IMG/VR virus record: IMGVR_UViG_3300028920_000277
Location: 1 to 23,117 of that record
DNA: 23,117 bases
DNA from: a virus
Strand: one strand, 5' to 3'
Part shown: one piece after another, positions 1-11,689 of the stretch
Layout: each line of letters starts with the position of its first letter
Position numbering within the stretch: the first letter of the stretch is position 1
Program-made: the position numbers and the translations under genes
Notes under the pieces: model-generated
Databases searched by the model: none
The model's input: only the letters and a program-made list of their open reading frames with translations
Told to the model about the DNA's origin: nothing

Positions 1-1
1 A

Positions 2-889
2 CTGTTCGGCACGTTGCGCGGCGAGTACGACGGGCACGTGTGTAAGGTGTTTGGTAACGCGGTCAAACGCGAATACTGGTTGCGGTTCGCACTTCTGGCG
101 GGTGTAACGCCGTCCATTCACGGCGACCGACACGCGACCCTGGGCGAACGTTTCTTGAAATTCGAAATGATGCGTGGTTCCGATTGGGACGCCGACCGCG
201 AAATACGCGCCGCCATTGGGAACATTGCCAGGGAATCGGCAATGGAAACGGCATTGGTTGACGTGACCGGGCGTTTCCTTTCCCAGAAAGTCGAACGCCT
301 GGGCGCGTTGCCGCCGTGGGTCGTCGACCGTGTCGTTGCCCTGGCGCAATTGATTGCCGCATTACGGGCGAACGTCGAACGCGAAGTGTACGGCGACCAA
401 CGGTTGAAGTACCGACCGCAACGTGAAGTCGGAACTAGGTTGGCAAAGCAACTTGTGAAGTTGGGGCAACTGGTCGCAATCGTGGACGGAAAAGACGTGA
501 TCGACGCCGAAGTGTATCGCTTGGTGGAACGTGTCGCGTTCGACACGGCAATTGGTTTTCACCTGGACCTGGTGCAAGCGTTGATGCACGAAGGCGGCGC
601 GGCGACGCGTGAAGAAATCGCGGAAGTCGTCGACCTTCCGTACACGACCCTGTCCCGTTCCCTGGAAGACCTGGCGTCGTTGAAGGTCGTCCGCCCGCAC
701 AAACGCAAACGACGTCGCGGCGAACGCGGACGCCCAGGCACAACGTACATTGTTGCCGATTGGGTCGCGGAACTTTGGGAACGCGCCGCCGTCGGTGCGG
801 ATCATGTAATGCGTGGAATGCGTGTACGTCGTCGTGTCGCGGGAAACCGGGTCAAGGTGCGAAAGCGTGGTTTGACCCCTGGAAAATGA
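2..889 (+). CDS. Replication ATPase/helicase-like protein, C-terminal part (5' truncated by window)
   Basis: The reading frame is open from base 2, so the gene starts outside the window; about 295 residues are visible. The first 50 carry a pattern (YDG, then VFG, then LLAGVTPSI, then LGERFLKFEM) that I associate with the end of the ATPase core of phage primase/helicase-like P-loop proteins, where the invariant LGERF...R part lies near the sensor/arginine region. Residues about 195-245 look like a winged helix (TREEIAEVVDLPYTTLSRSLEDL, split helix-turn-helix) followed by a very basic stretch (KRKRRRGERGR), fitting DNA binding. The Walker motifs would lie upstream and are not seen. It probably acts in phage DNA replication; an alternative is a regulatory ATPase. 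Family assignment is from memory of motif patterns, not a search. It is the last gene before a regulatory spacer and a tRNA. Confidence 0.6.
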   Translation: MFGTLRGEYDGHVCKVFGNAVKREYWLRFALLAGVTPSIHGDRHATLGERFLKFEMMRGSDWDADREIRAAIGNIARESAMETALVDVTGRFLSQKVERLGALPPWVVDRVVALAQLIAALRANVEREVYGDQRLKYRPQREVGTRLAKQLVKLGQLVAIVDGKDVIDAEVYRLVERVAFDTAIGFHLDLVQALMHEGGAATREEIAEVVDLPYTTLSRSLEDLASLKVVRPHKRKRRRGERGRPGTTYIVADWVAELWERAAVGADHVMRGMRVRRRVAGNRVKVRKRGLTPGK

Positions 890-953
890 TTTGGAACGCG
901 TGTTGAGTGAAAACGCAAAAGTGCAAAATACGCACGCTAGAAGGCGCGTACGC

Positions 954-967
954 AAATTGCAACAATT
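954..967. promoter_or_regulatory. 14-nt repeated element, copy 1 (AAATTGCAACAATT)
   Basis: AAATTGCAACAATT occurs here and again, identical, at 4937-4950. Its core is an interrupted dyad, AATTG-CAA-CAATT, like a small operator. Both copies sit outside genes, one before the tRNA and one before the terminase genes. A shared operator or promoter element is inference; AATTGC words are also common inside genes here. Confidence 0.35.
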
Positions 968-973
968 GGTCGG

Positions 974-1128
974 GGTATTTTTCTCCAAAGTTAGGGGGGG
1001 TAAGTGTGTGAAGGGGGTATTTTTCTCTATCACGCCTGACCTATATTTGAAATTTGAAACAATAGGAAAAACAACAGTGGGACAGGGGGTACATACCTTC
1101 ACCCCCCTAAATGTTGGAGAAAAATACC
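974..1128. repeat. Long imperfect inverted repeat with repeated GGTATTTTTCTC boxes
   Basis: The arms at 974-1004 and 1097-1128 are near-perfect reverse complements over about 31 bases: GGTATTTTTCTCC, a few mismatches, then a run of seven G against a run of six C. A third copy of the box, GGGGTATTTTTCTC, lies in direct orientation at 1014-1027, so the spacer holds two direct copies (972-986, 1014-1027) and one inverted copy (1116-1128). The stretch is clearly richer in A+T than the genes around it and has no believable gene. It could be a set of protein-binding sites, a large RNA hairpin, or part of an origin; the sequence alone does not decide. Confidence 0.6.
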
Positions 1129-1147
1129 GCGAATTGTGCAACAAAAA

Positions 1148-1221
1148 AGGGCGGTTGCGTAACGGTAGCGCGTCGGGTTTTGGTCCCGACGGTCGGGGTT
1201 CGATTCCCTGCCGCCCTGCCA
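1148..1221 (+). tRNA. tRNA-Gln (anticodon TTG)
   Basis: A complete 74-base cloverleaf folds by hand. The acceptor stem AGGGCGG pairs with CCGCCCT, with a weak A1-U72 end, discriminator G73 and an encoded CCA. The D stem is GCGT/GCGC, the anticodon stem TCGGG/CCCGA around loop TTTTGGT, and the T arm CGGGG-TTCGATT-CCCTG. The loop gives anticodon TTG, which reads CAA. A weak first acceptor pair and G73 are known features of glutamine tRNAs. The genes in this window favour CAA over CAG, so the tRNA plausibly supports translation of the phage's own messages. No integrase or repeated tRNA end is seen, so I do not read it as an attachment site. Confidence 0.93.
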
Positions 1222-1244
1222 ACTTGGAAAGGTAGGTGGTTGAC

Positions 1245-1637
1245 ATGGCACTTTCGATTTTCGAACGCGGGTACGATCCCCGGCGCAACGTGTATCGGTT
1301 GCACGTGTTGTTCGACGACCACGAATACACGTTGTACGTGAAGGCATACGCGAAGGTGGAAGCGGACCGAATGCGCCTTGACGGCGAGTCGGACGGGCGC
1401 GTGTTCAATCACCTTTTGATTGCGAGTCGGAACGAATCAAAGCGACGTGCGGCGGCACGCCTGGTCAATAGCGCGGTCGACTTGCGGCGGAAGTTCAAGA
1501 CGGGCGACCGGGTCGTGTCGAAGGTGACGGGCATTCGCGGGGAAGTGTCCATGTCGGGCGACGAATTTGTGCGGGTGCGCCTGGACGGCGGGGACACGGT
1601 GTTGGAACTCCACATTTCCGAACTGGACTTCGAATAA
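1245..1637 (+). CDS. Small protein with C-terminal SH3/KOW-like beta domain, unknown function
   Basis: 130 residues. I chose ATG 1245 over the in-frame GTG 1236 because AGGTGG sits just upstream at 1234-1239. The N-terminal half mixes charged strands and helices and matches nothing I know. The last 45 residues (from FKTGDRV, through GIRGEV, to VLELHISELDFE) have the look of a small SH3- or KOW-like barrel, a fold often used to bind nucleic acid or protein; this is pattern inference. It is the first gene after the tRNA, 23 bases downstream, and starts the chain of overlapping small genes; its TAA stop shares a base with the next ATG (TAATG). Function unknown. Confidence 0.75.
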   Translation: MALSIFERGYDPRRNVYRLHVLFDDHEYTLYVKAYAKVEADRMRLDGESDGRVFNHLLIASRNESKRRAAARLVNSAVDLRRKFKTGDRVVSKVTGIRGEVSMSGDEFVRVRLDGGDTVLELHISELDFE

Positions 1638-1879
1638 TGGTGCGCAAGAAATCACAACGGGCGTACCTGGTGTTGCGGTGCAACACCGAAGGCGGTACGG
1701 TCGACATGTACGGCACGACGGTTCAAGTGTTGTTGAAAAACAAGGAAGACAAAGTGTTGGGCATGTGTCCGGTAGTGTCCACGAAGAAACGGGCGCATGA
1801 ACTTTCCGACGGTGGGCGATACGAAATTGTGGAAATACGGTTGGGCGTATCTGATTCGGAACGGCGGGTTACGACGTGA
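1637..1879 (+). CDS. Hypothetical 80-residue protein
   Basis: 80 residues, basic at the N-terminus (VRKKSQR), then alternating hydrophobic and polar residues suggesting a small beta protein (YLVLRC, VQVLLKN, YEIVEIRL). No motif I recognise and no membrane segment. Its ATG overlaps the previous TAA by one base and its TGA overlaps the next start codon (GTGA at 1876-1879), so it is probably translated by coupling with its neighbours. Codon choice (TTG, CAA, GCG) fits the rest of the phage. I can support it as a gene by position and codon use only. Confidence 0.7.
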   Translation: MVRKKSQRAYLVLRCNTEGGTVDMYGTTVQVLLKNKEDKVLGMCPVVSTKKRAHELSDGGRYEIVEIRLGVSDSERRVTT

Positions 1880-2559
1880 AGGCGCGAACGTTTTTCCGTT
1901 GGTTGTTTGCGGTGTACCTGGTCGCGGCGTTGGTTGCGTTGCGGTGCGTCGTGTGCGTCGGTGGTCGTGCGGTTGACGAAATCAAATCGCCGGTCGTCGA
2001 AGTGAAGGCGCGCGACCTGGGGCGTATGCGCGGCGTGTCGACCAGGCGTCCACGAAAGAAACCGGAAGTCGAATACGTGGACAGGTTAGTGTTGAATTAC
2101 GCGCACGACCTGACGTACCACGTGACCGGGTATACGCGGTTTTCGGACGCGGGCGACCCCTGGCGCAAAACGTACGCGTCGGTGAATTTTCTGCCTGGTG
2201 GAAAGTTGTTCAACCCGCGCAAACCGTATTTGAAGAAATGGACGAAGCTACACGACGCACATTACACGGTCGCGGTGCCGGTGAAGTGGCGACACCTATT
2301 CGAAGACCGCGTGGAATTGCCGGACGGCACTTGGTTTCACCGGTACCGGATTTGGTGCGACGGATACACGCCGCCGGGTAAGTATGCAGTACCGCGTGAT
2401 CGAATCACGGCGCACGACCGGTTTGATTTTCTGTTTACGTCGCGCAAGGGCGGCAAGGGTCCGACCGCGCGGGCATACGCTTTCACGTCGAAAGCGAAGA
2501 CGTTTGAAGTTTGGCGATACGATTGGGTCAAGGTGCCGAAGGGTAATGCGGATAAATGA
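1876..2559 (+). CDS. Membrane-anchored protein with possible 3D/double-psi-barrel-like domain
   Basis: 227 residues, starting at GTG 1876 inside a GTGA overlap. Residues about 6-28 form one hydrophobic segment (FFRWLFAVYLVAALVAL...), a signal anchor or uncleaved signal peptide, followed by a basic linker (RRPRKKPE). The remaining 150 residues are rich in Trp, Tyr and Asp and include VTGYTRFSDAG, YTVAVPVKW, RIWCDGYTP and HDRFDFLFTS. The order of a YT-turn, a VAVP strand, a Cys-Asp and a final RFDFLF loosely recalls 3D-type double-psi barrels of cell-wall lytic proteins, but key residues are not clear and I hold this only as an idea. If right, the protein would act in the envelope and could be part of lysis. 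Otherwise it is an unassigned membrane protein. It ends in an ATGA overlap with the next gene. Confidence 0.7.
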   Translation: MKARTFFRWLFAVYLVAALVALRCVVCVGGRAVDEIKSPVVEVKARDLGRMRGVSTRRPRKKPEVEYVDRLVLNYAHDLTYHVTGYTRFSDAGDPWRKTYASVNFLPGGKLFNPRKPYLKKWTKLHDAHYTVAVPVKWRHLFEDRVELPDGTWFHRYRIWCDGYTPPGKYAVPRDRITAHDRFDFLFTSRKGGKGPTARAYAFTSKAKTFEVWRYDWVKVPKGNADK

Positions 2560-2819
2560 AACAGACATATGTTATTGATAAAGGCGTTACCATTCCGTTT
2601 ACCGGCAAGTGGGCACAACTTGCCGACATAATGGACGTTGGCGATTCCGTATTATTGAATACGCGTGACGAAGCGTGCGGGTTGTGCCGGGCAATACGTA
2701 AAGCAGGTTGGGAAGGAAGACAACGGAAGGAAGGCGACAAATTTCGTGTTTGGTTACTCGACGATGTAACCGCGTTGTCGTTAGGCGGACACGGTAATGT
2801 ATTTGAGGATACGAAATGA
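2556..2819 (+). CDS. Small phage protein with MDVGDS motif, unknown function
   Basis: 87 residues, ATG 2556 overlapping the previous TGA. The layout (KGVTIPFTG, then MDVGDSVLL, then a helix with charged residues, then KFRVWLLDD) resembles a widespread group of small phage proteins built around an M-x-V-G-D-S motif and a final VRVW strand, whose function is not known to me. There is no membrane segment or metal site, although a C-x-x-C (CGLC) lies mid-protein. This gene and the next are visibly more A+T-rich than their neighbours and use codons such as TTA, GTA and ATA more often, which suggests a later arrival than the flanking genes. It ends in another ATGA overlap. Confidence 0.75.
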   Translation: MKQTYVIDKGVTIPFTGKWAQLADIMDVGDSVLLNTRDEACGLCRAIRKAGWEGRQRKEGDKFRVWLLDDVTALSLGGHGNVFEDTK

Positions 2820-3103
2820 CGACGAAAAAAGTTGCGCGTAAAAAATCACTTGCACGTTTGATTGGCGAATGTCTCGAACGTGACTTTGCTTGGATGGTTT
2901 TTGTATCGGACGACGCCGCGTCCGAATGTGAGAAATGCAATCATGTAGGTGGAAAGTATGACAGATATTGCGTGCGGTGCGGTTCGAAAATGACAAAGAG
3001 ACACGCACAATACACCGACGGTACGAACGCCTTGAAACGGGCACTATGTCACGCGTTGAAAGTGCGCGGTGAAAAAATAGTTTCGAAAGAACGGAAAGGG
3101 TAA
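2816..3103 (+). CDS. Small zinc-ribbon-like protein
   Basis: 95 residues, ATG 2816 within ATGA. The N-terminus is very basic (TTKKVARKKSLAR). Two C-x-x-C knuckles, CEKC and CVRC, lie about 14 residues apart at the centre and would bind one zinc ion as a short zinc ribbon. The C-terminal part is a basic helix (ALKRALCHALKVRGEKIVSKERKG). Such small ribbons usually bind nucleic acid or act as protein adaptors; which applies here cannot be told. Like the preceding gene it is A+T-rich compared with the window. It is the first of three Cys-knuckle proteins in this cassette. Confidence 0.75.
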   Translation: MTTKKVARKKSLARLIGECLERDFAWMVFVSDDAASECEKCNHVGGKYDRYCVRCGSKMTKRHAQYTDGTNALKRALCHALKVRGEKIVSKERKG

Positions 3104-3107
3104 CGAA

Positions 3108-3506
3108 ATGACAGTCACGGCGTGGTTGTTGGCGGGGTTGGTGGTGTTGCTTATGGTGTCCGCGTGGGGGGTGCGGCGGTCGTACTGGAAGGTCATTCGG
3201 CAACTGGAAGCGGAAATTGAGGAACGCCCGAATATCTATTTTGTGAATTGCGAATTTCCGCACATGAAAAAACCAAAGTCGTTGCGGTTGGACAAGATCG
3301 ACCCTGGTTGCAAAGCGTTGTTGGTGTTCCGGCATGACTGCGACGAAATGCGTATGGTTGATCGACGGCGTATCGACATTCACGAAATCGCCCGCGAGTA
3401 CGCCGACAAATTGTTGGACCGCGCGAACGAACCGTGGTCGGCGGAACTCCACAAACAGGTATCGGATATCGTGAACTACCTGGCGCACGGAAGGCGGTTG
3501 AAATGA
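3108..3506 (+). CDS. Membrane-anchored protein with N-terminal transmembrane helix, unknown
   Basis: 132 residues. ATG 3108 follows AAGGG at a normal ribosome-site distance and is four bases after the previous stop, the first non-overlapping junction of the cassette. Residues 4-22 form a clear transmembrane helix (AWLLAGLVVLLMVSAWGV) followed by Arg-Arg, then a likely coiled stretch (YWKVIRQLEAEIEERP) and a soluble domain with a strand-rich centre (NIYFVNCEF, KALLVFRHDCDEMRMV) and a helical end. Topology is probably N-out or N-in single pass with the bulk in the cytoplasm (positive-inside rule, Arg after the helix). I recognise no family. The stop overlaps the next ATG. Confidence 0.72.
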   Translation: MTVTAWLLAGLVVLLMVSAWGVRRSYWKVIRQLEAEIEERPNIYFVNCEFPHMKKPKSLRLDKIDPGCKALLVFRHDCDEMRMVDRRRIDIHEIAREYADKLLDRANEPWSAELHKQVSDIVNYLAHGRRLK

Positions 3507-3697
3507 CCTGGTACGAATGGGCGGCGGTTGCGTGGGGGTGGTTCGGAATGTTGTTGGCGGTTGCGTTCCGCGACCAGGTCGTGCGGGTGGGCGTGCGTGA
3601 TCGGTGGTGGTGGTACCCGGTCGTGGTAGTGATTTGGCCGGGTTTTGTGTTGGTGTACATTTTCGACAAGGCGATTGCACGGGGGAAGTTCAAATGA
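3503..3697 (+). CDS. Small two-helix membrane protein
   Basis: 64 residues from ATG 3503 (ATGA overlap); a longer in-frame opening from GTG 3434 lies inside the upstream gene and is less likely. Two hydrophobic segments are visible, residues about 5-22 (WAAVAWGWFGMLLAVAF) and about 36-57 (WWWYPVVVVIWPGFVLVYIF), joined by a charged loop (RDQVVRVGVRDR). Size and two-helix shape would allow a holin or antiholin, but a better holin candidate lies at 9067-9432, and the position among zinc-knuckle genes argues for something else. Unusually rich in Trp. Function unknown. Confidence 0.7.
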   Translation: MTWYEWAAVAWGWFGMLLAVAFRDQVVRVGVRDRWWWYPVVVVIWPGFVLVYIFDKAIARGKFK

Positions 3698-4086
3698 CGG
3701 CGCACACGCGGTGTTGGTTGGAATGCGACGGGGGTTGCGGACAAACGTTCGGTTTGATTGGCGAACACGACAACCGGTACCAAAAGTTGTCGACGTTGCG
3801 CAAGGCGGCGAAGACGGCGGGTTGGTGGAAAAGTTCGAAGGGCGGGAACGGTGAACGGGACTTGTGCCCGACCTGTCAACCCGTGCGGGATCACCGAAAA
3901 CGCGTGAAGTACCCGGCGGCATTCATGGTCGGCGACCTGGCGTTGTGTCACCGGCATAAACGCGAAGTGTTGTTGTTGAATGGTGCAAGCGGGTCCGCGT
4001 CGAAGTCGTCACCGTTGCCGCACGATTCGAAGCACGAATACGAATGCGGTATGTGTCGGCACGAACACGAAGGGAACGGCAAATGA
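3694..4086 (+). CDS. Cys/His-rich zinc-binding protein
   Basis: 130 residues from ATG 3694 (ATGA overlap); the in-frame opening upstream to 3604 is only the shadow of the previous gene. Metal ligands are many: C-x3-C-x3-C near the N-terminus (CWLECDGGC), CPTC at the middle, a C-H-x-x-H cluster (CHRHKRE) and CGMC followed by H-x-H near the end, enough for two or three zinc sites. The rest is basic and helical. The arrangement of an N-terminal C...GCG...W domain followed by C-P-x-C recalls small phage zinc proteins of unknown role. Second of the three Cys-knuckle proteins here, translationally coupled on both sides. Confidence 0.75.
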   Translation: MTAHTRCWLECDGGCGQTFGLIGEHDNRYQKLSTLRKAAKTAGWWKSSKGGNGERDLCPTCQPVRDHRKRVKYPAAFMVGDLALCHRHKREVLLLNGASGSASKSSPLPHDSKHEYECGMCRHEHEGNGK

Positions 4087-4454
4087 AACCGGGTTGGTAT
4101 TGGTTTTGTGGTACGGTGGACGGTACACCCGTTCCCGTTGTTGAAGTGGTGCGGTGTGACGACACGCACGAAGGCGTCGTGTACCGTGCCGGGTATTCAC
4201 GCGTGTACAAAATGCACAATTTCAAAGGGCAATGGTCGGGACCGGTGGAAAAACCCGGCGAAGGCACGACATACGGTGCGAAAGGTCCGAACGCATTTTA
4301 CGAATGCCGAAGACTGCTTGACGCGGACGGCGTGTTGTGCCCGAAGTGCGGTAACAACATGATAAGCCATAAAAGCGGACGTGTGACAGTGCACCGGTGT
4401 TCGAAATGCGGCGTGGTCGCATACGACGAATTTGCCGACCTGGTGTCGGAATGA
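4083..4454 (+). CDS. Zinc-ribbon protein with N-terminal PGWYW domain
   Basis: 123 residues from ATG 4083 (ATGA overlap). The N-terminal 60 residues start PGWYWFCGTVDGTPVPVVEV, a compact beta arrangement I associate with small phage proteins that begin PGWYW; no role is known to me. The C-terminal 45 residues are a textbook zinc ribbon, CPKCG...CSKCG with 18-20 residues between knuckles (LCPKCGNNMI, VHRCSKCGVV). Zinc ribbons of this kind often contact nucleic acid or polymerase, so a transcription or replication adaptor is possible, but that is inference. The stop overlaps the ATG of a 32-codon membrane peptide. Confidence 0.78.
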   Translation: MKPGWYWFCGTVDGTPVPVVEVVRCDDTHEGVVYRAGYSRVYKMHNFKGQWSGPVEKPGEGTTYGAKGPNAFYECRRLLDADGVLCPKCGNNMISHKSGRVTVHRCSKCGVVAYDEFADLVSE

Positions 4455-4549
4455 AAGTTGATTGGACACGAACGGCGGGGTGGTTGGTCATACTCGCGGT
4501 CACGGTTTTGTTTTGGTGGTGCGTTATCAGGTGGGTTTGTTGTGTGTGA
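4451..4549 (+). CDS. 32-residue single-helix membrane peptide
   Basis: A short open frame starts at ATG 4451, inside an ATGA overlap, and stops at 4547-4549. It encodes 32 residues: a short polar N-terminus (MKVDWTRTAG), one hydrophobic helix (WLVILAVTVLFWWCVI) and RWVCCV at the end. The overlap of exactly the type used by all neighbouring genes is the main argument that it is translated. Single-helix peptides of this size occur in phages as regulators of host membrane enzymes, antiholins or toxins; nothing here picks one. Too short for certainty. Confidence 0.5.
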   Translation: MKVDWTRTAGWLVILAVTVLFWWCVIRWVCCV

Positions 4550-4562
4550 TTCGTTCGAACGC

Positions 4563-4937
4563 ATGTCGCGCAAACCGAAGCACGACCACGGACCCCGGCA
4601 CCAGGTCAACCCGCCGGTGGTCAACGTCGGCGACCAGGTCGGTACCCTGGACGAACTCGCCCACGTAATCCGCGTCGGTGGTTGGCGCAACGTATGCGTG
4701 GTCGGACGTGGTGACGTCGCGCCGCGTGTCGTGAAGGCGATTCGAAACAAGGTTGGACGAACGCACGTGCGCTTTGACGGCGTCAACGAATTACGCGACC
4801 TGGTCGTGTTGGTCAACGGTGCCCTGGTGCCCGACGACGCGTCCGTGTCGCCGTGTTGCCAGGTCGTCGCCGTCCATGTGCCGCCCGGCGGTTGTGCCGT
4901 CTTTTGGTCGTCGCCGGTCGACTTTCGCCAGAAATAA
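4563..4937 (+). CDS. Hypothetical protein, last gene of small-gene cassette
   Basis: 124 residues from ATG 4563. No clear ribosome site precedes it; in-frame GTG 4542 is an alternative that would overlap the preceding peptide gene. The N-terminus is polar and basic (SRKPKHDHGPRHQ). The rest alternates strands and helices: VVNVGDQVGTLDELAHVIRV, NVCVVGRGDVAPRVVKAIRN, HVRFDGVNELRDLVVLVNG, VVAVHVPPGGCAVFW. This looks like a small alpha/beta fold, but I cannot name a family and see no catalytic signature. It is the end of the cassette; a 156-base spacer with a possible control element follows. Confidence 0.65.
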   Translation: MSRKPKHDHGPRHQVNPPVVNVGDQVGTLDELAHVIRVGGWRNVCVVGRGDVAPRVVKAIRNKVGRTHVRFDGVNELRDLVVLVNGALVPDDASVSPCCQVVAVHVPPGGCAVFWSSPVDFRQK

Positions 4938-4950
4938 AATTGCAACAATT
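4937..4950. promoter_or_regulatory. 14-nt repeated element, copy 2 (AAATTGCAACAATT)
   Basis: Identical to 954-967, starting at the stop codon of the previous gene, at the left end of the only spacer before the terminase genes. The spacer 4951-5093 holds no gene I can support; possible promoter boxes such as TTGAGC (4961) and GATAAG (4982) are weak. If the element is an operator it would control packaging/late genes. Confidence 0.35.
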
Positions 4951-5093
4951 CGGAAAATGATTGAGCATAACTCCGTGTGTCGATAAGGGGTTGTGTTCGA
5001 TTCGGGCGCATTTCGCCGCCAGGGCCGAACAAAAAGTGGTTGTACGCGTAAGTCGTTTGGGCGACGGTAATTGCGTCGAAGGTGGGATACCGA

Positions 5094-5597
5094 ATGGCGA
5101 AAGGCAAACGGGTTGTAAAGCAACCAGGGAACACCCGAAAGGCGAAGTCGACGGGACGTCGTGCGCCGCAAAAGGCGTCGAATGCAAAAGCACGTTCGAA
5201 GAATTCGGCGAAGCGGAAACGAAACCCCGCCGATCACCTTGAACAATACAAATGGCAACCAGGTCAATCCGGCAACCCGAACGGTCGACCACCAAACCCA
5301 TTGTCACTTACCAACAGGTTACGACAACACCTGGACGAACCCGCGTCCAAGTACGAACACGTGTGCCGCATTGCGGACAAGTTGGGCGTCATGGTTCACG
5401 ACAAAACTGTTGGCGATGTTCTCATGGCGGCGGCAACCATGCACGCGATTCTATCTGACCGGGGCGCGCACTTATCAATCATTCTCGACCGTGTCGACGG
5501 CACAACCAAACAGGCACCCGCAAAAGACCCCGCCGAACAGGCGGCGGACGTCCAGGCATTTCTCGCGGACGCCGAAGCGTCGGTGGGCGACGTATGA
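5094..5597 (+). CDS. terS: Terminase small subunit-like protein (DUF5681-type N-terminal motif)
   Basis: 167 residues. ATG 5094 is chosen over in-frame GTG 5082 because GAAGGTGG at 5078-5085 is well placed for it. The first 45 residues are very basic. Residues about 54-75 read QYKWQPGQSGNPNGRPPNP, close to the F-K-P-G-Q-S-G-N-P-x-G-R-P motif of DUF5681, a domain regularly found just before large terminase genes. A helical region follows and the end is Ala/Asp-rich. The likely role is recognising the packaging site on phage DNA and loading the large subunit; the motif and the TerL neighbour support this, while DNA binding is inferred. The TGA overlaps an ATG that opens a 13-codon mini-frame leading to TerL. 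Confidence 0.75.
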   Translation: MAKGKRVVKQPGNTRKAKSTGRRAPQKASNAKARSKNSAKRKRNPADHLEQYKWQPGQSGNPNGRPPNPLSLTNRLRQHLDEPASKYEHVCRIADKLGVMVHDKTVGDVLMAAATMHAILSDRGAHLSIILDRVDGTTKQAPAKDPAEQAADVQAFLADAEASVGDV

Positions 5598-5635
5598 CCT
5601 GGCACACATTGTCGCCGTCGCCCTGGTGGTGTTGA
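5594..5635 (+). other. 13-codon mini-ORF bridging terS and terL
   Basis: ATG 5594 overlaps the terS stop (ATGA) and opens a frame MTWHTLSPSPWWC that stops at 5633-5635, two bases before the ATG of terL. It could hand ribosomes from terS to terL by termination-reinitiation. It may equally be chance; there is no protein-level evidence. Confidence 0.3.
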
Positions 5636-5637
5636 CC

Positions 5638-6966
5638 ATGTCCGTGTTGACTCCCCGTTGGTCGCAACTTCGGTACCACCCCGAACAGAATAGGTGTTGG
5701 AAAAACACCGCCAGGTTCTACGTCAACCCCGCCGGTCGCCGGTCGGGCAAAACCGAACTGTTGAAGCGACGTGCGATTGTCAAGGCACTACGGGCGCGAC
5801 ACGTTGATTGGTGGGGAATACTCGCCGCGCCGACGCACTTACAGGCAAAGCGGATTTTCTGGCGCGACATAAAGGCGTTAGTGCCTGACCGATTGATCCG
5901 CGACAAGTCGGAAAGCGAACTGACGTTGACATTCGTACACGGTCCGCGCCTGTCGGTCATGGGCCTGGACGCACCGGAACGTGTCGAAGGTTCGCCCCTG
6001 GACTTCGCGGGCGTCGACGAATTCGGAAACATGAAACCGGAAACCTGGGGCGAGCATTTGCGCCCGGCGTTGTCCACGCCAGGAAGACCGCCAGGGGAAG
6101 CGGCGTTTATTGGAGTGCCCGAAGGTCGCAACCATTATTACGACCTGGCGCGCCGTGCCCAGGCAGACACGACCGGCGTATGGGCATACTACCATTGGGT
6201 TTCCGCCGACATACTGGACCCCGAAGAAATCAAACAAGCGAAACACGACCTGGACGACCTGACATTCCAACAGGAATACGAAGGGTCGTTCGTCATGTTC
6301 ACCGGGCGGACGTACTATCCTTTCGCCGCCGCGACACATACCGAACCCCTGGAATACGACCCGCGCGCCGACCTGGTGTTTGCCTTCGACTTCAACGTGT
6401 CGCCTGGTGTCGCCGCCGTGATACAGGAACAGGAATACGGCGGACGGAATCGCAATTGCGCCGACCATGTATCCGGCGTGATTGGCGAAGTGTGGATTCC
6501 GCGCAACTCTAATACGCAATTGGTTTGTTCGCGCCTGGTCACCGATTGGGGGAAGCACAAGGGGCGCGTGTTGTGCTATGGTGACGCGACCGGCGGTGCC
6601 AGGGGAACGGCGAAGACGTCCGGCACCGATTGGGAATTGATCGAAGCGGCGTTGCGTCCGACATTCCGTGACCAATTGCACTTCGAAGTCCCGAAGGCGA
6701 ACCCGTCCGAACGCGCCAGGGTGAACGCGGTCAACTCGCGGTTGTGTTCCGCCGACGGCACCGTGTCCCTGTTGGTCGACGGGGAAAAGGCACCGCGCGT
6801 TGTGCTTGACCTGGAAGGCGTGCGGTGCGTTGAAGGTGGGTCGGGCGAGATCGACAAAAAGGCGGACAAGACCCTGTCCCATATTTCCGACGCCCTGGGA
6901 TACTACGTCGTACGGGAATTCCCAATCGACAAGGGCGGGCCTTTGATGCGAAGGCGGATCACATGA
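5638..6966 (+). CDS. terL: Terminase large subunit
   Basis: 442 residues. ATG 5638 is the best start; the frame stays open upstream to 5161 but that part overlaps terS in another frame and has no protein-like composition. ATPase motor: Walker A GRRSGKT at residues 33-39 and Walker B FAGVDE with D127 and catalytic E128. Then comes the LTFQQEYEGSF element (209-218) that commonly marks the linker in phage terminases. Nuclease domain: three acidic metal ligands in the usual order, FAFDFN (D251), CYGDATG (D316) and SHISDALGYY (D418). The enzyme packages DNA into the prohead through the portal and cuts concatemers. Length is in the normal range of short TerL proteins. Its TGA overlaps the next ATG. 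Confidence 0.95.
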   Translation: MSVLTPRWSQLRYHPEQNRCWKNTARFYVNPAGRRSGKTELLKRRAIVKALRARHVDWWGILAAPTHLQAKRIFWRDIKALVPDRLIRDKSESELTLTFVHGPRLSVMGLDAPERVEGSPLDFAGVDEFGNMKPETWGEHLRPALSTPGRPPGEAAFIGVPEGRNHYYDLARRAQADTTGVWAYYHWVSADILDPEEIKQAKHDLDDLTFQQEYEGSFVMFTGRTYYPFAAATHTEPLEYDPRADLVFAFDFNVSPGVAAVIQEQEYGGRNRNCADHVSGVIGEVWIPRNSNTQLVCSRLVTDWGKHKGRVLCYGDATGGARGTAKTSGTDWELIEAALRPTFRDQLHFEVPKANPSERARVNAVNSRLCSADGTVSLLVDGEKAPRVVLDLEGVRCVEGGSGEIDKKADKTLSHISDALGYYVVREFPIDKGGPLMRRRIT

Positions 6967-7352
6967 CCGACAACGAATACCGCGTCGGCGTGCGACACGT
7001 ACACGACGTCGACAAGGCGGCACGTGAACGCGCCAGGCAAACCGTCAAGGTCGAACTGGAACGCGAGTACCACGTGGTTTGCGTTGACCGGGCGACCGGC
7101 GAACCTGTCGAACTTCCGGCGGAATCGAAAGTGTGGATTGTCCGCACGGACCCGACCATGCCAGAAGTGTTGTGGAACGCCGGACTGTGCGCCCTGGAAG
7201 CGTATGCCGCCGCCCTGGACGACGACGCGCCAGACGTTGCGTCGGACATACGCAAACACATTGTGTTGCACCGGACCGCGCGCGACGCCTTCCAGGCGAA
7301 CCGGGAAGACCTGGCGAATGTTGACGACACCATTTGCGAAGGGCGGCGGTAA
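6963..7352 (+). CDS. Hypothetical protein after terL
   Basis: 129 residues, ATG 6963 in an ATGA overlap with terL. Mostly acidic and basic helices: an N-terminal helix (VDKAARERARQTVKVELERE), a short strand pair around VVCVDRATGEPVEL and KVWIVRTDP, then helices rich in Ala and Asp (VLWNAGLCALEAYAAALDDD). No membrane segment, no Cys motif, no family I recognise. It opens the accessory block between terminase and portal, and its TAA shares one base with the next ATG. Function unknown. Confidence 0.72.
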   Translation: MTDNEYRVGVRHVHDVDKAARERARQTVKVELEREYHVVCVDRATGEPVELPAESKVWIVRTDPTMPEVLWNAGLCALEAYAAALDDDAPDVASDIRKHIVLHRTARDAFQANREDLANVDDTICEGRR

Positions 7353-7549
7353 TGTCATATTGGCAAACCGAAACGTTGGAACGCGGACCCGACGAACAGG
7401 AATTGCAACCGGTCACCAGGTACGCGGAAACCGACGACGTGTTGTCGTGGTTGCGCCAGGTGCAAGCGGACGAAGCACCGCGAATAATCGTTTACCGGTC
7501 GCACAAGTCTATTTCGAAAGCGGAATACGAAGCGGGGGTCGGATCGTGA
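7352..7549 (+). CDS. Hypothetical 65-residue acidic protein
   Basis: 65 residues from ATG 7352 (TAATG overlap with the preceding stop). Acidic and probably partly helical (DDVLSWLRQVQADEAP), ending with IIVYRSHKSISKAEYEAGVGS. Nothing recognisable. The TGA overlaps the GTG start of the first of three paralogous genes, so it may be expressed together with them. Support comes from position, overlaps and codon use. Confidence 0.62.
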   Translation: MSYWQTETLERGPDEQELQPVTRYAETDDVLSWLRQVQADEAPRIIVYRSHKSISKAEYEAGVGS

Positions 7550-8046
7550 CGAAACTTCGGGTGGAAGGTTTGATTGAACAAGGCGTGGTGTACCGCACGT
7601 CGCATATATTCGCGGCGGTCGCACCGACCGGTATCGTATACGTGTTGATCCGCACGCCAGGGGTGCCAGGTGCGCGTGTGCGCCTGGACTACGCGGTGTT
7701 GTCAGAAGTATTCGCACGCCTTCGCCTGTACGAAGGGCCGGACATTTCCGCCGTCGGAACATCGTTGACGGCAGTCAACATGCGCCGCGACGTAACACGC
7801 CCGGCGGAATGCCTGGTGTATCACACGCCGACAATCGGCATCGGTGGACCTGGTACCGAACTTGACGTTGACGAAGTACCGGGCGGCAACAACGCACCAG
7901 GGTTTCCCGTGGGCGGTCGGTACTTGGACCCTGACCGCGAATGGGTTTTGAAACAGGACACCGACTATTTGTTGTCCATCGAAAATGTGGCGGCACTGGC
8001 GGGCGACGTGAACGTGGTTCCGACCTGGCGCGAAGGGGACGAATAA
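7546..8046 (+). CDS. Paralogue 1 of three: probable virion beta-protein, 166 residues
   Basis: 166 residues from GTG 7546 (GTGA overlap). It aligns along its whole length with the next two genes. Shared landmarks are an N-terminal EGLIEQG...Y helix, then HIFAAV, a strand-rich middle with a YE-turn (LRLYEGPDI), an N-M-R-R-D stretch, VYHTPTI, DPDREWVLK and a final YLLSIEN. The pattern suits a compact beta-sandwich. I have the impression that proteins with this YE...N-x-x-R...P-T-x...ILK...YL-x-N pattern are common in phage structural modules, so a capsid-surface or other virion role is likely, but I cannot name it. This copy is the most divergent: it has a longer Gly/Pro loop (PGGNNAPGFPVGG). 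Its TAA overlaps the next ATG. Confidence 0.78.
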   Translation: MTKLRVEGLIEQGVVYRTSHIFAAVAPTGIVYVLIRTPGVPGARVRLDYAVLSEVFARLRLYEGPDISAVGTSLTAVNMRRDVTRPAECLVYHTPTIGIGGPGTELDVDEVPGGNNAPGFPVGGRYLDPDREWVLKQDTDYLLSIENVAALAGDVNVVPTWREGDE

Positions 8047-8546
8047 TGGGAAATGAAAAGGGACGCACGGAAGGATTGATCGAACAGGGCAAATTGTGGA
8101 TTGCGCAACACCTGTTCGCCGCAATCGGCGCGGGCGTGTCGAAGTTCGTTCACGTGAAAACGGGCGACGCGCCCGCCTTGCGCGTGTTCATGGACTATTC
8201 CGTGTCGGCGTTGTTCGAAACGGACGTGTACCTGTACGAAAACCCGACGTTGACCGGGGACGGAACGCCGTTGACGAAGTACAACATGCGGCGCGACTAC
8301 GCGGGAAACCCCGCGTTCGCCCAGGTGTTTCACACGCCGACCATTTCCGCCAATGGAACACAACTCGATTTGCACAAGGTACCCGAAGCGGGACAAACCG
8401 CCGGGTTGGTGTCGGGCGTATATGATCCCGACCGCGAGTGGATACTGAAAGCCAACACGTCGTATTTGATACGCGCGCACAATCGGGGTGCCCTTGCGTC
8501 GTTGGGATATACGACGGTGATTTTCCGCGAAGGGGAGGTGTACTAA
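8046..8546 (+). CDS. Paralogue 2 of three: probable virion beta-protein, 166 residues
   Basis: 166 residues from ATG 8046 (TAATG overlap), preceded by AAGGGG at a good distance. Landmarks are shared with both neighbours: TEGLIEQGKLW, HLFAAIG, FVHVKTGD, DVYLYENPTLTGDGTPLT, NMRRDY, VFHTPTISANGTQLDL, DPDREWILK, SYLIRAHN. The segment PTLTGDGT is shared almost exactly with paralogue 3, and NMRRD with paralogue 1, so it sits between the two in similarity. No signal peptide or membrane segment, as expected for a protein assembled in the cytoplasm. Likely virion role by company and fold pattern; identity of the part is unknown. Confidence 0.78.
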   Translation: MGNEKGRTEGLIEQGKLWIAQHLFAAIGAGVSKFVHVKTGDAPALRVFMDYSVSALFETDVYLYENPTLTGDGTPLTKYNMRRDYAGNPAFAQVFHTPTISANGTQLDLHKVPEAGQTAGLVSGVYDPDREWILKANTSYLIRAHNRGALASLGYTTVIFREGEVY

Positions 8547-8547
8547 C

Positions 8548-9048
8548 ATGTCCGACCAACTACAACGGGCGGAAGCGTTGATTGAGGAAGGGCGCGTGTA
8601 CAATGCCGCGCACCTGTTCACCGCAATACTCGCGTCCAATTCCAGGTATCTTCACGTGCGTACGCCGTCGGCGGACGATACCGACTTGCGGGTGTTTCTG
8701 GACATGCAAACGGTATCAACGATTCTTTCGACGTTAACTTTGTACGAAACCCCGACCCTGACCGGCGACGGAACGGCAATCACCCCGCGCAACTTCAAAC
8801 GTGATTCCGGCGACAATGCCCTGACGGAAGTATTCTACACGCCGACGTTTTCGGCGAAGGGCACGCAAATAATCGCGCGTTGGATTCCCGCCGCGTCCCT
8901 GGCGGGTTGGGGGTCGCGCGGGTACGACTCCGACCGCGAACTGTTACTGAAAGCGGGTGAGTCGTACCTTTTGGAAATCACCGACATTGCCGGACAACCA
9001 TACGAAGCGTCAATGGCGGCGGTGTTTTGTGAACGGGTCGTGTACTAA
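8548..9048 (+). CDS. Paralogue 3 of three: probable virion beta-protein, 166 residues
   Basis: 166 residues from ATG 8548, one base after the previous stop, with GGGGAGG upstream inside the preceding gene: the strongest ribosome site of the three. Landmarks: RAEALIEEGRVY, AAHLFTAIL, YLHVRTPS, LTLYETPTLTGDGTAIT, a weaker N-F-K-R-D, VFYTPTFSAKGTQI, DSDRELLLK, SYLLEITD. Equal length in all three copies argues for repeated gene duplication under a structural constraint. A 66-base-or-shorter neighbour gap does not exist; the holin-like gene starts 18 bases downstream. Role as for the other two copies; possibly subunits of a hetero-oligomer on the particle. Confidence 0.78.
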   Translation: MSDQLQRAEALIEEGRVYNAAHLFTAILASNSRYLHVRTPSADDTDLRVFLDMQTVSTILSTLTLYETPTLTGDGTAITPRNFKRDSGDNALTEVFYTPTFSAKGTQIIARWIPAASLAGWGSRGYDSDRELLLKAGESYLLEITDIAGQPYEASMAAVFCERVVY

Positions 9049-9066
9049 CCTGGAAAGGGAACAGGC

Positions 9067-9432
9067 ATGGACAATTTCGCGGCGATACTTGAACTGGTGT
9101 TGAAGATTTTTGGCGGCGCGTTGTCGGTACTGGCGACCGGGATTGCCTGGAAGCTACTTGGCAAGGTTGGGATACAGAAGACCGCCGAACGCGAATCGCT
9201 TTTGCGCGGGTACGTCAAGGAAGGCATAAACCGGACCGAAGCGTGGGCGAACGAAAACGGTAAAAAGGGCAACGACAAACTGGTGCATTGCCTGGAAGTC
9301 GTGAAGACCCTTGCCGGTGCCGCCGGTTTGAAGAAATGGGCGGACGACGTACTGGTGTCGAAGATCGAAGCGCAACTGACACACAACGCCGCGAATGGTT
9401 CGGGTGTTGGTTCGGTGTCAACGGGAGAGTGA
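9067..9432 (+). CDS. Holin-like protein (LLH-type pattern)
   Basis: 121 residues from ATG 9067, with AAAGGGA upstream. Residues about 5-30 are a hydrophobic helix (AAILELVLKIFGGALSVLATGIAW), followed by a charged amphipathic helix (KTAERESLLRGYVKEGINRTEAWA), then GKKGNDKLVHCLEVVKTLAGAAG and VSKIEAQLTHN. One membrane helix followed by a GxxK...A-rich helix ending in an IEA element is the pattern I know from the LLH group of phage holins (superfamily 6). A holin forms membrane holes to let lysin out at the end of infection. No lysin is recognised next to it, so the call rests on shape. The TGA overlaps a GTG that opens an alternative frame. Confidence 0.6.
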   Translation: MDNFAAILELVLKIFGGALSVLATGIAWKLLGKVGIQKTAERESLLRGYVKEGINRTEAWANENGKKGNDKLVHCLEVVKTLAGAAGLKKWADDVLVSKIEAQLTHNAANGSGVGSVSTGE

Positions 9433-9641
9433 CACAATGGCAAAGCGAAGCGGAATACAACGGACGATTGGTACCGCGTACGGTGCGCGTGACGGGCACG
9501 GACAGGGGCGCGGAATGGCGGGTGGTATGCGACGTAATCGCAACACCGGTGGATGTTCCCTTGGTGGACCTGGCGGTGGTAAAGGTGGTGGACGCGGCAA
9601 GGGACGCGGTCGTACGACATAACAAAAGGTTGACCGCATGA
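9429..9641 (+). CDS. Alternative/overlapping frame, 70 residues
   Basis: A frame from GTG 9429 (GTGA overlap with the holin-like gene) to TGA 9641 (ATGA overlap with the next gene) encodes 70 residues that look like an ordinary folded protein: TQWQSEAEYNGRLVPRTVRV, GAEWRVVCDVIATP and VDLAVVKVVDAARDAVVRH. Its junctions match the coupling style of this genome at both ends, and codons such as TTG, GTG and GCG fit. Against it, no ribosome site lies at a proper distance. It overlaps the Gly/Arg-rich frame for that gene's whole length. Confidence 0.35.
   Translation: MTQWQSEAEYNGRLVPRTVRVTGTDRGAEWRVVCDVIATPVDVPLVDLAVVKVVDAARDAVVRHNKRLTA
9437..9622 (+). CDS. Gly/Arg-rich small protein
   Basis: 61 residues from ATG 9437, ten bases after GGGAG at 9423-9427. 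It begins MAKRSGIQRTIGTAYGARDG, then a basic glycine-rich tail (GMAGGMRRNRNTGGC, GGPGGGKGGGRGKGRGR). The tail resembles low-complexity Gly/Arg/Lys peptides seen in some phages and could bind nucleic acid. It overlaps almost completely with a second open frame (9429-9641). I prefer this frame because its own ribosome site is well placed and because after its TAA an AAAAGG site follows at the right distance for the next gene. Either frame, or both, could be real. Confidence 0.55.
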   Translation: MAKRSGIQRTIGTAYGARDGHGQGRGMAGGMRRNRNTGGCSLGGPGGGKGGGRGKGRGRTT

Positions 9642-9841
9642 AGATCGTTGCAAAGGTCGCCGCCTGGTTGTTCGGGTTGTTGTTCCGCGAATGGAAGAAA
9701 CCGCACGAAGGCGAAATGGTGGGCGGCGGCAAGACGACCAGGGACGACGTCAACGGTTCGGTGGACGACATGTTGGACGACGACACGAAGATTGTCACCA
9801 GGCGCACGACGCGCCCAGGCAACCAGGGGGACGAAGGTTGA
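9638..9841 (+). CDS. Small protein with N-terminal hydrophobic helix
   Basis: 67 residues from ATG 9638, eight bases after AAAAGG. Residues 1-16 (MKIVAKVAAWLFGLLF) form a short amphipathic or membrane helix, followed by a charged, probably flexible tail (REWKKPHEGE, DDMLDDDTKIVTRRTTR). It could associate with the inner membrane and take part in lysis, given the holin-like gene upstream and the lipoprotein-like gene downstream, but no spanin features can be claimed. The TGA overlaps a TTG start (TTGA). Confidence 0.62.
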   Translation: MKIVAKVAAWLFGLLFREWKKPHEGEMVGGGKTTRDDVNGSVDDMLDDDTKIVTRRTTRPGNQGDEG

Positions 9842-10260
9842 TAGTCAAACTGCCTTCCGGTCGTTGGCAACTCCGGTCGAAGGACGGTGCGCGCGTGTTG
9901 GGCACGTTCGACACAAAGGCCGAAGCGGAACGCCGCGAACGCCAGGTTTTGTTCTTTTCCAGAAGACGCAATCGCCGTCGCCGTCGGTCGTCGGTCCAGG
10001 TGGTGTTCCTGGCGTTTGCCCTGGTGTTGTGTTCGGGGTGCCTGGGCGGACTGCGACGACATGAAATCGTGAAGCACCCCGACGCGCCCATGTTGATTGC
10101 GGAAACGCGCGGCGGGTACGTGCGGGTGTTCGTGTATCGGAAGGCGGACGCGCGCCTGGTTGAATACGGGTGGGTTCGCCTGTCAACCGTGAAGGGTTGG
10201 ACCCTGACGAAATACGATTGGGAAGCACGGGCGGCGAAGGATAGAAACAATGGTGAATGA
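9838..10260 (+). CDS. Short phage motif followed by lipoprotein-like segment and C-terminal domain
   Basis: 140 residues if translation starts at TTG 9838 (TTGA overlap). Residues 3-40 (VKLPSGRWQLRSKDG, LGTFDTKAEAERRERQV) match a short basic motif I have seen in many phage proteins, of unknown role. Residues 41-52 are almost all Arg, then a hydrophobic segment (VQVVFLAFALVL) ends in CSGC, an imperfect lipobox with Cys68 as the possible lipid site. The remaining 70 residues form a soluble domain (PMLIAETRGGYVRVFVY, VEYGWVRL, GWTLTKYDW). TTG 9949 would give a normal lipoprotein with a basic N-region, so two products are possible. A Rz1-like outer-membrane role is conceivable only from position next to the holin-like gene. 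Its stop lies inside the start of the portal gene. Confidence 0.6.
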   Translation: MIVKLPSGRWQLRSKDGARVLGTFDTKAEAERRERQVLFFSRRRNRRRRRSSVQVVFLAFALVLCSGCLGGLRRHEIVKHPDAPMLIAETRGGYVRVFVYRKADARLVEYGWVRLSTVKGWTLTKYDWEARAAKDRNNGE

Positions 10261-11689
10261 AGGCGCGGCGAAAAAAGACCAGGTCGACACCACGTCGGCA
10301 CAATACGACGACATGTGCGACAAGTGGGCATTGGTGTTCGATTTGATAGCGGGTACACGCCGAATGCGTGAACGTGGTCAAAAGTGGTTGCCGAAGGAAA
10401 CACGCGAAGACAACGACGCGTACGCCGTGCGCCTGGCGCGGTCGTTCCTGTACAACGCGACGAAAGACACACGCGACAAGTGGGTTTCGCGTCCATTTTC
10501 AAAACCACTTACCCTTCAAAACGCCGATACCCTGGACGACCGGTTGAAAGATATCCAATGGGACGCCGACTTGGCCGGGCGTACCCTGGACGCCCTGGCG
10601 TCGGACCTGTTCGAAAACGCCTTGGAAACCGGCAAGTGTCACCTGTTGGTCGACTATCCTTCCGTTTCGTCCGACCTGTCGTTGGAAGACGAAGAAAAGT
10701 TGGACCTGCGACCGACGTTTGTTCAAATCCGTTCGCAAGACCTGTTCGCCTGGCGTGCCGAACGCCGCCCGAATGGCGAACCCCGGTTGACTCAAATTCG
10801 TTGGCGGGAAAACACTGTCGAAGCGGACGGCGAATGGTCGGACCGGATCGTGGAACGTATACGTGTTATGACGCCGACCACCTGGGAAGTGTGGGAAAAG
10901 GTCACGACGAAGACCGGCGAAGAATACCAACAGGTGTCGGAAGGTACGCACACGTTCGGCGAAATTCCCCTGGTCACGGCGTATTTTAACCGTGCCGGTT
11001 TCATGGTTTCGGAAAGTACCCTGGATGACATTTCTTGGTTGAACCTGGCGCACTGGCAATCGCAGTCCGACCAACGAAACATATTGCGGTTCGCGCGCGT
11101 CGGAATGATTTTCGTCAAGGGACTTTCGAAAGACGAATTCGAAGCGGGGTTGACTGTCGGTCCCAATGAAATGATTGCGTCGACGAACGACCAGGCGGAC
11201 GCAAAGGTGGTCGAACATTCCGGCAAGGCAATTGCCGCCGGTCGACAAGACCTGTTGGACCTGGAACAGAAAATGGAAGTATTGGGCGTTCAACCCCTGG
11301 TCAACCGCGCAAACCCGACGGTGATCGGACAGGCAATCGGCGAAAACAAGTCCGTGACCGTAATCCAATCATGGGTCCGCGTAATGGAAACCATGTTGGA
11401 AGACGCGTACGAACTGGCGGCAACCTGGATCAAGGCGGACATACCGGACGACTTCGCCGTGGACATATTCAACGACTTCGGAATTTCCCTGGACGACACG
11501 CGCGAAGTCGAAGCGTTGTTGAAAGCACGCGTCGCCGGGGAAATCACGCAACAAACATTGTTGAATGAACTGAAACGGCGCGGCGTGTTGTCCGACTCGT
11601 TGGACGTGGAAGACGAAGTCGAAGCGACGACGGAGGAAGACGCGCGCGGCCTGGACGTAAACGTGAATCTGGAAGGTGAAATCGAATAA
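10250..11689 (+). CDS. Portal protein (DUF4055 type)
   Basis: 479 residues from ATG 10250, with GAAGGA eight bases upstream. The N-terminal part carries the pattern WLPKE...YAVRLARSFLYNATKDTRDKWVSRPFSKP, followed by a central region with LLVDYP, YFNRAG and a LNLAHWQSQSDQRNILRFAR helix, which I know from DUF4055 proteins, now understood as portal proteins. The C-terminus is very acidic. Twelve copies would form the ring at one capsid vertex through which TerL drives DNA and to which the connector binds. Position just before a Mu F-like gene, scaffold and coat agrees. Separation from terL by 3.3 kb is unusual. The TAA shares one base with the next ATG. Confidence 0.88.
   Translation: MVNEGAAKKDQVDTTSAQYDDMCDKWALVFDLIAGTRRMRERGQKWLPKETREDNDAYAVRLARSFLYNATKDTRDKWVSRPFSKPLTLQNADTLDDRLKDIQWDADLAGRTLDALASDLFENALETGKCHLLVDYPSVSSDLSLEDEEKLDLRPTFVQIRSQDLFAWRAERRPNGEPRLTQIRWRENTVEADGEWSDRIVERIRVMTPTTWEVWEKVTTKTGEEYQQVSEGTHTFGEIPLVTAYFNRAGFMVSESTLDDISWLNLAHWQSQSDQRNILRFARVGMIFVKGLSKDEFEAGLTVGPNEMIASTNDQADAKVVEHSGKAIAAGRQDLLDLEQKMEVLGVQPLVNRANPTVIGQAIGENKSVTVIQSWVRVMETMLEDAYELAATWIKADIPDDFAVDIFNDFGISLDDTREVEALLKARVAGEITQQTLLNELKRRGVLSDSLDVEDEVEATTEEDARGLDVNVNLEGEIE

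Follow-up and report, generated by a model that had tools for sequence, protein, structure and literature searches.

A Long Inverted Repeat with Three Identical Boxes behind a Putative Primase-Helicase Gene Fragment of a Tailed Phage: A Candidate Hairpin-Type Origin of DNA Replication

In the Sulfolobus plasmid pRN1, a stem-loop of 100 bp starts 54 bp behind the gene for a primase-helicase that carries a winged helix at its C terminus (PMC4234260, PMC3869888). Deletion work has shown this stem-loop to be needed for replication, it is functional when moved, its structure is conserved and its sequence is not, and a similar stem-loop has been reported behind a replication gene of the Bordetella phage BIP-1 (PMC4234260, PMC3869888). 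The alpha protein of phage P4 combines a TOPRIM-type primase, a helicase and a C-terminal winged helix in one polypeptide, and repeats are bound at the P4 origin (PMC4234260), and in SaPI and SCCmec origin repeats lie directly downstream of a helicase gene whose product binds them through its C-terminal domain (PMC7581432). For most environmental phages the origins of replication are unknown, and if these origins are marked by long hairpins behind primase genes, a simple scan would locate them. We describe here an inverted repeat with three identical boxes in an environmental phage sequence and compare it with similar elements in other phages and with the systems named above.

The DNA that was analyzed, referred to below as the window, is a whole virus record of 23,117 bases, and because genes for terminase, portal, scaffold, major head, tape measure and tail proteins were found in it, we regard it as a fragment of a tailed-phage genome. 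Comparison of nucleotides 1-12000 with named phages by megablast yielded no matches, an Rfam search of the window matched the tRNA alone, and a single-sequence pattern search found no relatives of the gene that follows this tRNA. The element under study occupies the spacer between the end of an ORF at position 889 and the tRNA-Gln gene at 1148 (Table 1). The initial annotation had described the spacer as the part of the window poorest in G+C and as bordered on one side by a tRNA, and both statements hold, the lowest GC content of any 400-nt block being that of 801-1200 (0.487).

Table 1. Features of the window that bear on the inverted-repeat element
Feature	Position	Strand	Remark
Putative primase-helicase, C-terminal part (295 aa)	2-889	+	N-terminal part beyond the left end of the contig
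Predicted winged helix for DNA binding at the C terminus, proposed to read the element	560-754	+	Weak HTH matches; model
Whole inverted-repeat element, proposed replication origin	955-1142		66 nt past the stop codon at 889
Left arm, best core	970-999	+	28 Watson-Crick pairs with 1102-1132
Box 1, GGTATTTTTCTC	974-985	+	Exact copy; pairs with box 3
G7 run	994-1000	+	Opposite C6 at 1102-1107
Box 2, GGTATTTTTCTC	1016-1027	+	Direct copy in the loop, 42 nt after box 1
A+T-rich part of the loop, candidate unwinding element	1041-1075		
GGTACATACC	1088-1097	+	Recurs at L182:5739, in the second long IR of record G040
Right arm, best core	1102-1132	-	Partner of 970-999
Box 3, GGTATTTTTCTC	1117-1128	-	Inverted copy; pairs with box 1
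tRNA-Gln(TTG)	1148-1221	+	Neighbor of the element
Probable small terminase gene (terS)	5082-5597	+	Position; tblastn matches in 5 terminase relatives
Large terminase gene (TerL)	5656-6966	+	phrog_2, PF03237

The inverted repeat and the direct repeat that accompanies it are real and far beyond chance. The best gapped core of the inverted repeat has 28 pairs, 2 mismatches and 1 gap, with 102 nt between the arms; the longer segments 970-1010 and 1092-1132 are 78% complementary, and in the computed folds the pairing stretches outward to about 955-1142. The inverted-repeat (IR) score of the element, 22.0, is the maximum for the window and was never matched in shuffled DNA, the top scores being 15.5 in 60 block shuffles of the window and 14.5 in 2000 shuffles of the spacer, none of which contained a direct repeat of 14 nt. 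The long inverted repeat with three boxes claimed in the initial annotation is therefore confirmed, as is its mention of a direct copy between the arms, with the correction that boxes 1 and 3 are the ones that pair and that box 2 lies in the loop, at an offset from box 1 of about four helical turns. At one mismatch, a search for GGTATTTTTCTC across the 23,117 bases returned the three exact boxes and nothing else, and at two mismatches it returned one extra match. The GC content of the loop is 0.40 versus 0.58 for the window, with a minimum of 0.17 over 30 nt.

The gene in front of the element had been annotated as a replication ATPase. That it encodes a replication protein is borne out; on the evidence of sequence relationships it is the C-terminal fragment of a putative primase-helicase, the primase and ATPase parts of which are deduced from relatives. 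Taken alone, ORF 2-889 gave only weak helix-turn-helix matches under the curated cut-offs (at 560-754, HTH_20 with E=7e-4 and an Lrs14-type HTH with E=4e-6); relatives were found neither by single-sequence patterns nor among named phages. In viral contigs, 14 related primase loci were recovered. The ORF at L096:8815-10887 (record G024), which is 38% identical to ORF 2-889 over the shared part, has matches to a CHC2 zinc ribbon and to TOPRIM and is preceded by a gene for a family A DNA polymerase, and six additional relatives examined by pattern all contain EGxxD, three of them also showing a Walker A motif (GxPGxGKT type). An AlphaFold model of ORF 2-889, computed from 14 sequences, has a moderate mean pLDDT of 69.9, with values of about 71-93 (mostly >80) across a winged helix in which the protein is predicted to end. 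Foldseek related the model to winged-helix proteins and regulators and, weakly, to Orc1/Cdc6 initiators, with every E > 0.001. A first scan of genome contigs found no relatives of ORF 2-889 and a second found one, L245 (VRUK01000029.1), in which no strong IR occurs close behind the gene. L245 is a contig of a Planctomycetota MAG, its gene product is 32% identical to the window's primase fragment, and it offers a hint as to the hosts of this primase family.

Among viral contigs, the exact direct pattern of two boxes was found only in the unrelated contigs L007 and L008, and the exact inverted pattern was found in none. With TerL of the window as the query, relatives of the window were collected, and in 34 such terminase-relative records the box at one mismatch gave 12 scattered matches in 11 records, without a cluster. 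Random recurrence across the genome and lack of conservation in close relatives had been named in advance as findings that would speak against the element; the box is not scattered in the window, and it is not conserved in the relatives. The initial annotation had offered an origin, an operator cluster and an RNA switch as possible functions, inclining toward the origin because of the adjacent ATPase, and the comparisons set out below lend support to the origin, from other phages and from pRN1, and, in the types of stem mismatches, none to the RNA.

A scan that is independent of sequence, run on 1.37 Mb of relatives in which some records overlap (L031/L032, L070/L096), detected 16 IRs with a score of at least 17 and a loop of at least 30 nt; shuffled DNA yielded none in a comparison that covered the relatives other than L001-L003, L007, L008 and L087-L095. 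These results suggest that in such elements the structure recurs and the sequence changes. Seven of the 13 near-complete terminase-relative records have exactly one IR of this strength and six have none. When ten proteins that flank eight strong IRs were scanned against PHROG families, a replication protein proved to be the neighbor or the nearest long gene in six cases (L073, L038, G023, G005, G028 and G021) and not in two (G024 and L107). Iterated 8-mers were considered as a general mark of such elements and were dropped, since they took first rank only in L038 and L032 and the window was unremarkable in this respect.

The association was tested more fully in another primase family, that of L073, L038 and G023. 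IRs with a score of at least 12 lie within 350 nt past the primase stop codon at 15 of 17 loci, and IRs with a score of at least 16 at 11 of 17, against 9 and 2, respectively, of 169 control ORF ends in the same loci. Without the two seed loci and one look-alike, the counts are 12/14 and 9/14 (p about 1e-11 and 2e-10), with the score thresholds and the 350-nt limit having been picked once the first examples were known. The 17 loci, each with at least 300 nt past the stop, were drawn from 23; L223, L225 and L228 were dropped as duplicates, L237 had 172 nt past the stop, and L241 and L243 had no stop. A panel of primase-IR distances was built in part from genes that had come to notice next to an IR, and since the distances in it are for that reason not independent, the 17-locus test is the better guide. 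Long IRs near which no primase was found occur in G024, G016, Ab18, DoCa10, MW202657, G019 and L045.

Some of the non-coding regions in these phages are recorded as observations in their own right. Phage DoCa10 (L115, 1471-2143) has a gap behind the large terminase gene with two inverted repeats, and in the Stenotrophomonas phage QDWS359 the stretch that matches this gap overlies tRNA-Ile and tRNA-fMet. In Pseudomonas phage Ab18 (L113, 30795-31720) a gap of ~930 nt before terS contains a large hairpin, the stem of which is preserved by two-sided changes in Abidjanvirus relatives; for an Ab18-like phage, a 933-bp non-coding region is mentioned with no function assigned to it (PMC5418858). Rfam searches of eight relatives returned hammerheads and tRNAs only; six matches to type II hammerhead ribozymes lie upstream of the terminase genes on the minus strand of L032 (1627-7424) and three in L031, with one long inverted repeat near the L032/L031 matches.

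The primase family of the window itself, tested as the window plus 14 other loci (L104 and L111 among them being almost the same), behaves differently from the family just described. None of the 14 other loci has an IR with a score of at least 16 in the 350 nt behind the primase stop; an IR of 12.0 occurs within this distance at two of them, a count not significantly above that of the controls. Since these 14 loci have no strong IR behind the primase gene, the adjacency seen in the window could, if considered alone, be a coincidence. Elements similar to that of the window occur in the family away from the primase gene, at 3.9 kb in G035, at 2.1 kb in G044 and on other stretches of the records in G037 and G040. 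In L104 and L111, direct repeats arranged in tandem, each unit measuring about 30 nt, lie about 262 nt past the primase stop and might be iterons.

Strong IRs with paired runs of G and C are found in 5 of the 15 records of this family (the window, G035, G037, G040 and G047) and in 2 of 41 other records (G028 and MW202657; p = 0.012), and in 2.23 Mb there are just two instances of GGTAYRTACC close to a run of G4 or C4, one at 1088 of the window and one in the second long IR of G040, both of these comparisons being post hoc, made on sequences that had already been seen. When the G-run condition is lifted, GGTACATACC is encountered in L007, L010 and L139 as well. The two related long inverted repeats of G040 (L180:5024-5207 and L182:5687-5890) are about 40 kb apart and share the outer arm GATTAAAAACGGG. 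Record G037 has an inverted repeat of ~300 nt with long runs of G and C (L170:13134-13437), another strong repeat 0.4 kb off on the same stretch and a third 10 kb off.

We consider it probable, with moderate confidence, that the element is an origin, or one of several origins, of phage DNA replication, that it is of the hairpin type and that it is read by the primase-helicase encoded next to it. Support for this reading comes from the improbability of the repeat in shuffled DNA, from the neighboring primase-helicase fragment with its predicted winged helix, from the IRs behind replication genes in other phages, from the precedent of pRN1, from the paired G/C runs in the window's own primase family and from the balance of stem mismatches described below. 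Weighing against it are the 14 family loci that have no strong IR behind the primase gene, the long IRs near which no primase was found, the IRs just upstream of terS in several relatives, the greater stability of the sense strand in 14 of 20 elements, the weakness of the GC-skew support and the moderate quality of the protein model. In the mechanism that we envisage, the winged helix would recognize the boxes or the arms, helicase hexamers would gather at the dyad, which might extrude as a cruciform, and the A+T-rich loop would melt; the exposed single strand could then receive a primer from the protein's own primase part, which a DNA polymerase would extend. Cumulative GC skew, proposed as a check in the initial annotation, is uninformative in the window, where it is nearly monotonic, and weakly positive in other records. 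In 16 records the IRs were associated with the skew minimum by Fisher's test (p = 0.019) and not by the KS test (p = 0.26), which amounts to weak support; the IRs closest to the minimum are those of G014 (239 nt) and G040 (440 nt), and no association with the skew maximum was observed in these 16 records.

Of the other explanations, an RNA element, such as a terminator, a processing site or a structured leader located where the replication operon gives way to the tRNA and later genes, fares best, and we regard it as unlikely. The RNA fold of 960-1145 is strong (-71.6 kcal/mol, z = -6.3) and better on the plus than on the minus strand (-75.8 versus -63.6 kcal/mol), the sense strand is the more stable one in 14 of 20 elements, and in Abidjanvirus the stem of an analogous hairpin upstream of terS has been kept through two-sided changes at 10 of 73 pairs, a pattern that fits either DNA or RNA. 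Selection for pairing in RNA would, however, favor G-T mismatches on the sense strand, and the stems of the 20 elements, oriented by gene, contain 17 G-T and 15 A-C mismatches, a balance to be expected if the element acts as DNA and not as RNA; the core stem of the window has neither type and is therefore silent on this question. Nor was any site resembling an intrinsic terminator found at the element on either strand, where the loop measures 102 nt, or any Rfam match in the window besides the tRNA, and two placements in relatives also speak against this reading, the IR of G005 lying between two replication genes and one of those in G014 upstream of the primase gene.

A packaging site (pac or cos), at which the small terminase would bind the inverted boxes and packaging would start, appears to us quite improbable. 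Five distinct relatives (L073, L038, L032/L031, L041 and L069) do have a strong IR immediately ahead of the region of the small terminase, at 709-1009 nt upstream of the TerL match, and the IR of Ab18 lies in the gap before terS; in L073, L038 and L069 (record G023), however, this gap is at the same time the one right behind a primase gene, and the IRs of G005 and G021 are flanked by replication genes and lie a long way from the terminase. In the window, the element is ~4 kb from the probable terS, with the tRNA and small genes in between, and 4.6 kb from TerL. The ORF at 5082-5597 is presumed by us to be the small terminase gene from its position and similarity, and it had no PHROG family match. 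Sites of the lambda cosB type carry R boxes on either side of a spacer that has to bend, and the window element differs from them in not adjoining the terminase genes.

The probability that the element is an operator array, on which a phage regulator bound to the three boxes would govern how the tRNA and late genes are transcribed, seems to us equally small. The boxes are identical over 12 nt and intergenic, and the first two would lie on the same helical face; against such a role, the pairing runs well past the boxes, there are no further copies near other promoters of the window, and a search of 800-1350 found no sigma-70-like promoter. We consider a neutral duplication, or a small mobile element bounded by terminal inverted repeats, to be highly improbable, for although inverted arms flank a non-coding core and a 7-nt direct repeat, GCAACAA, was read by eye on both sides of the element, there is no second copy in the window, exact two-box patterns revealed no relative in viral contigs, and similar IRs of unrelated sequence recur beside primase genes.

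If the element is a replication origin, it might belong to a larger class. We propose, tentatively and with less confidence than we attach to the origin itself, that hairpin origins directly behind primase or primase-helicase genes may be widespread and largely unlisted in tailed phages, that they may accompany several unrelated primase types, TOPRIM primases included, with a stem code private to each lineage, and that origins might be predicted from structure and gene position in cases that comparison of sequences does not resolve, the window being a TOPRIM-type case with boxes. A search of the open-access PMC literature found no report of the hairpin-behind-primase layout with TOPRIM primases. 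Should the proposal be correct, the pRN1 model, which in the accounts cited above rests on an archaeal plasmid family and one phage group, could be put to the test in many phages and for a second type of primase.

How the element compares with the described systems can be summarized by first considering the direct repeats. SaPI and SCCmec share with the window the position of repeats behind the gene of an initiator helicase, and differ in that short direct repeats are enough for them (PMC7581432). With P4 alpha the likeness lies in the protein, in which a TOPRIM primase and a Walker A motif (known for the window from relatives) are combined with a winged helix (predicted in the window), although a PDB sequence search with the window protein gave no match to P4 alpha; the P4 origin differs in consisting of iterons without a single long hairpin, whereas the window has just three boxes. 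For pRN1, our IR scanner returned the stem-loop as the top match, with inner ends at 5104 and 5163 (published limits 5084-5183); in the stretch of BIP-1 that was examined the best IR, which may not be the published stem-loop, was 26628-26689, about 0.5 kb behind the replication gene that ends at 27177 on the minus strand. pRN1 and the window have in common a long stem-loop close behind a replication gene (54 bp and 66 nt, respectively), a large loop and a replication protein with a C-terminal winged helix, which in the window is predicted only. Recurrence of structure without sequence, as described for pRN1, was seen in phages for the other primase family, and in the family of the window 0/14 loci have a strong IR behind the gene. 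The arms and loop measure 30/31 and 102 nt in the window as opposed to 21 and 58 in pRN1, and the window adds the boxes. pRN1 and BIP-1 have an archaeo-eukaryotic primase with an SF3 helicase, in contrast to the zinc ribbon and TOPRIM domains found in relatives of the window protein, whose own N terminus is missing. Because the element would work in the same manner with a primase that, judged by these relatives, is of a different type, we classify it as a putative variant of the pRN1 type.
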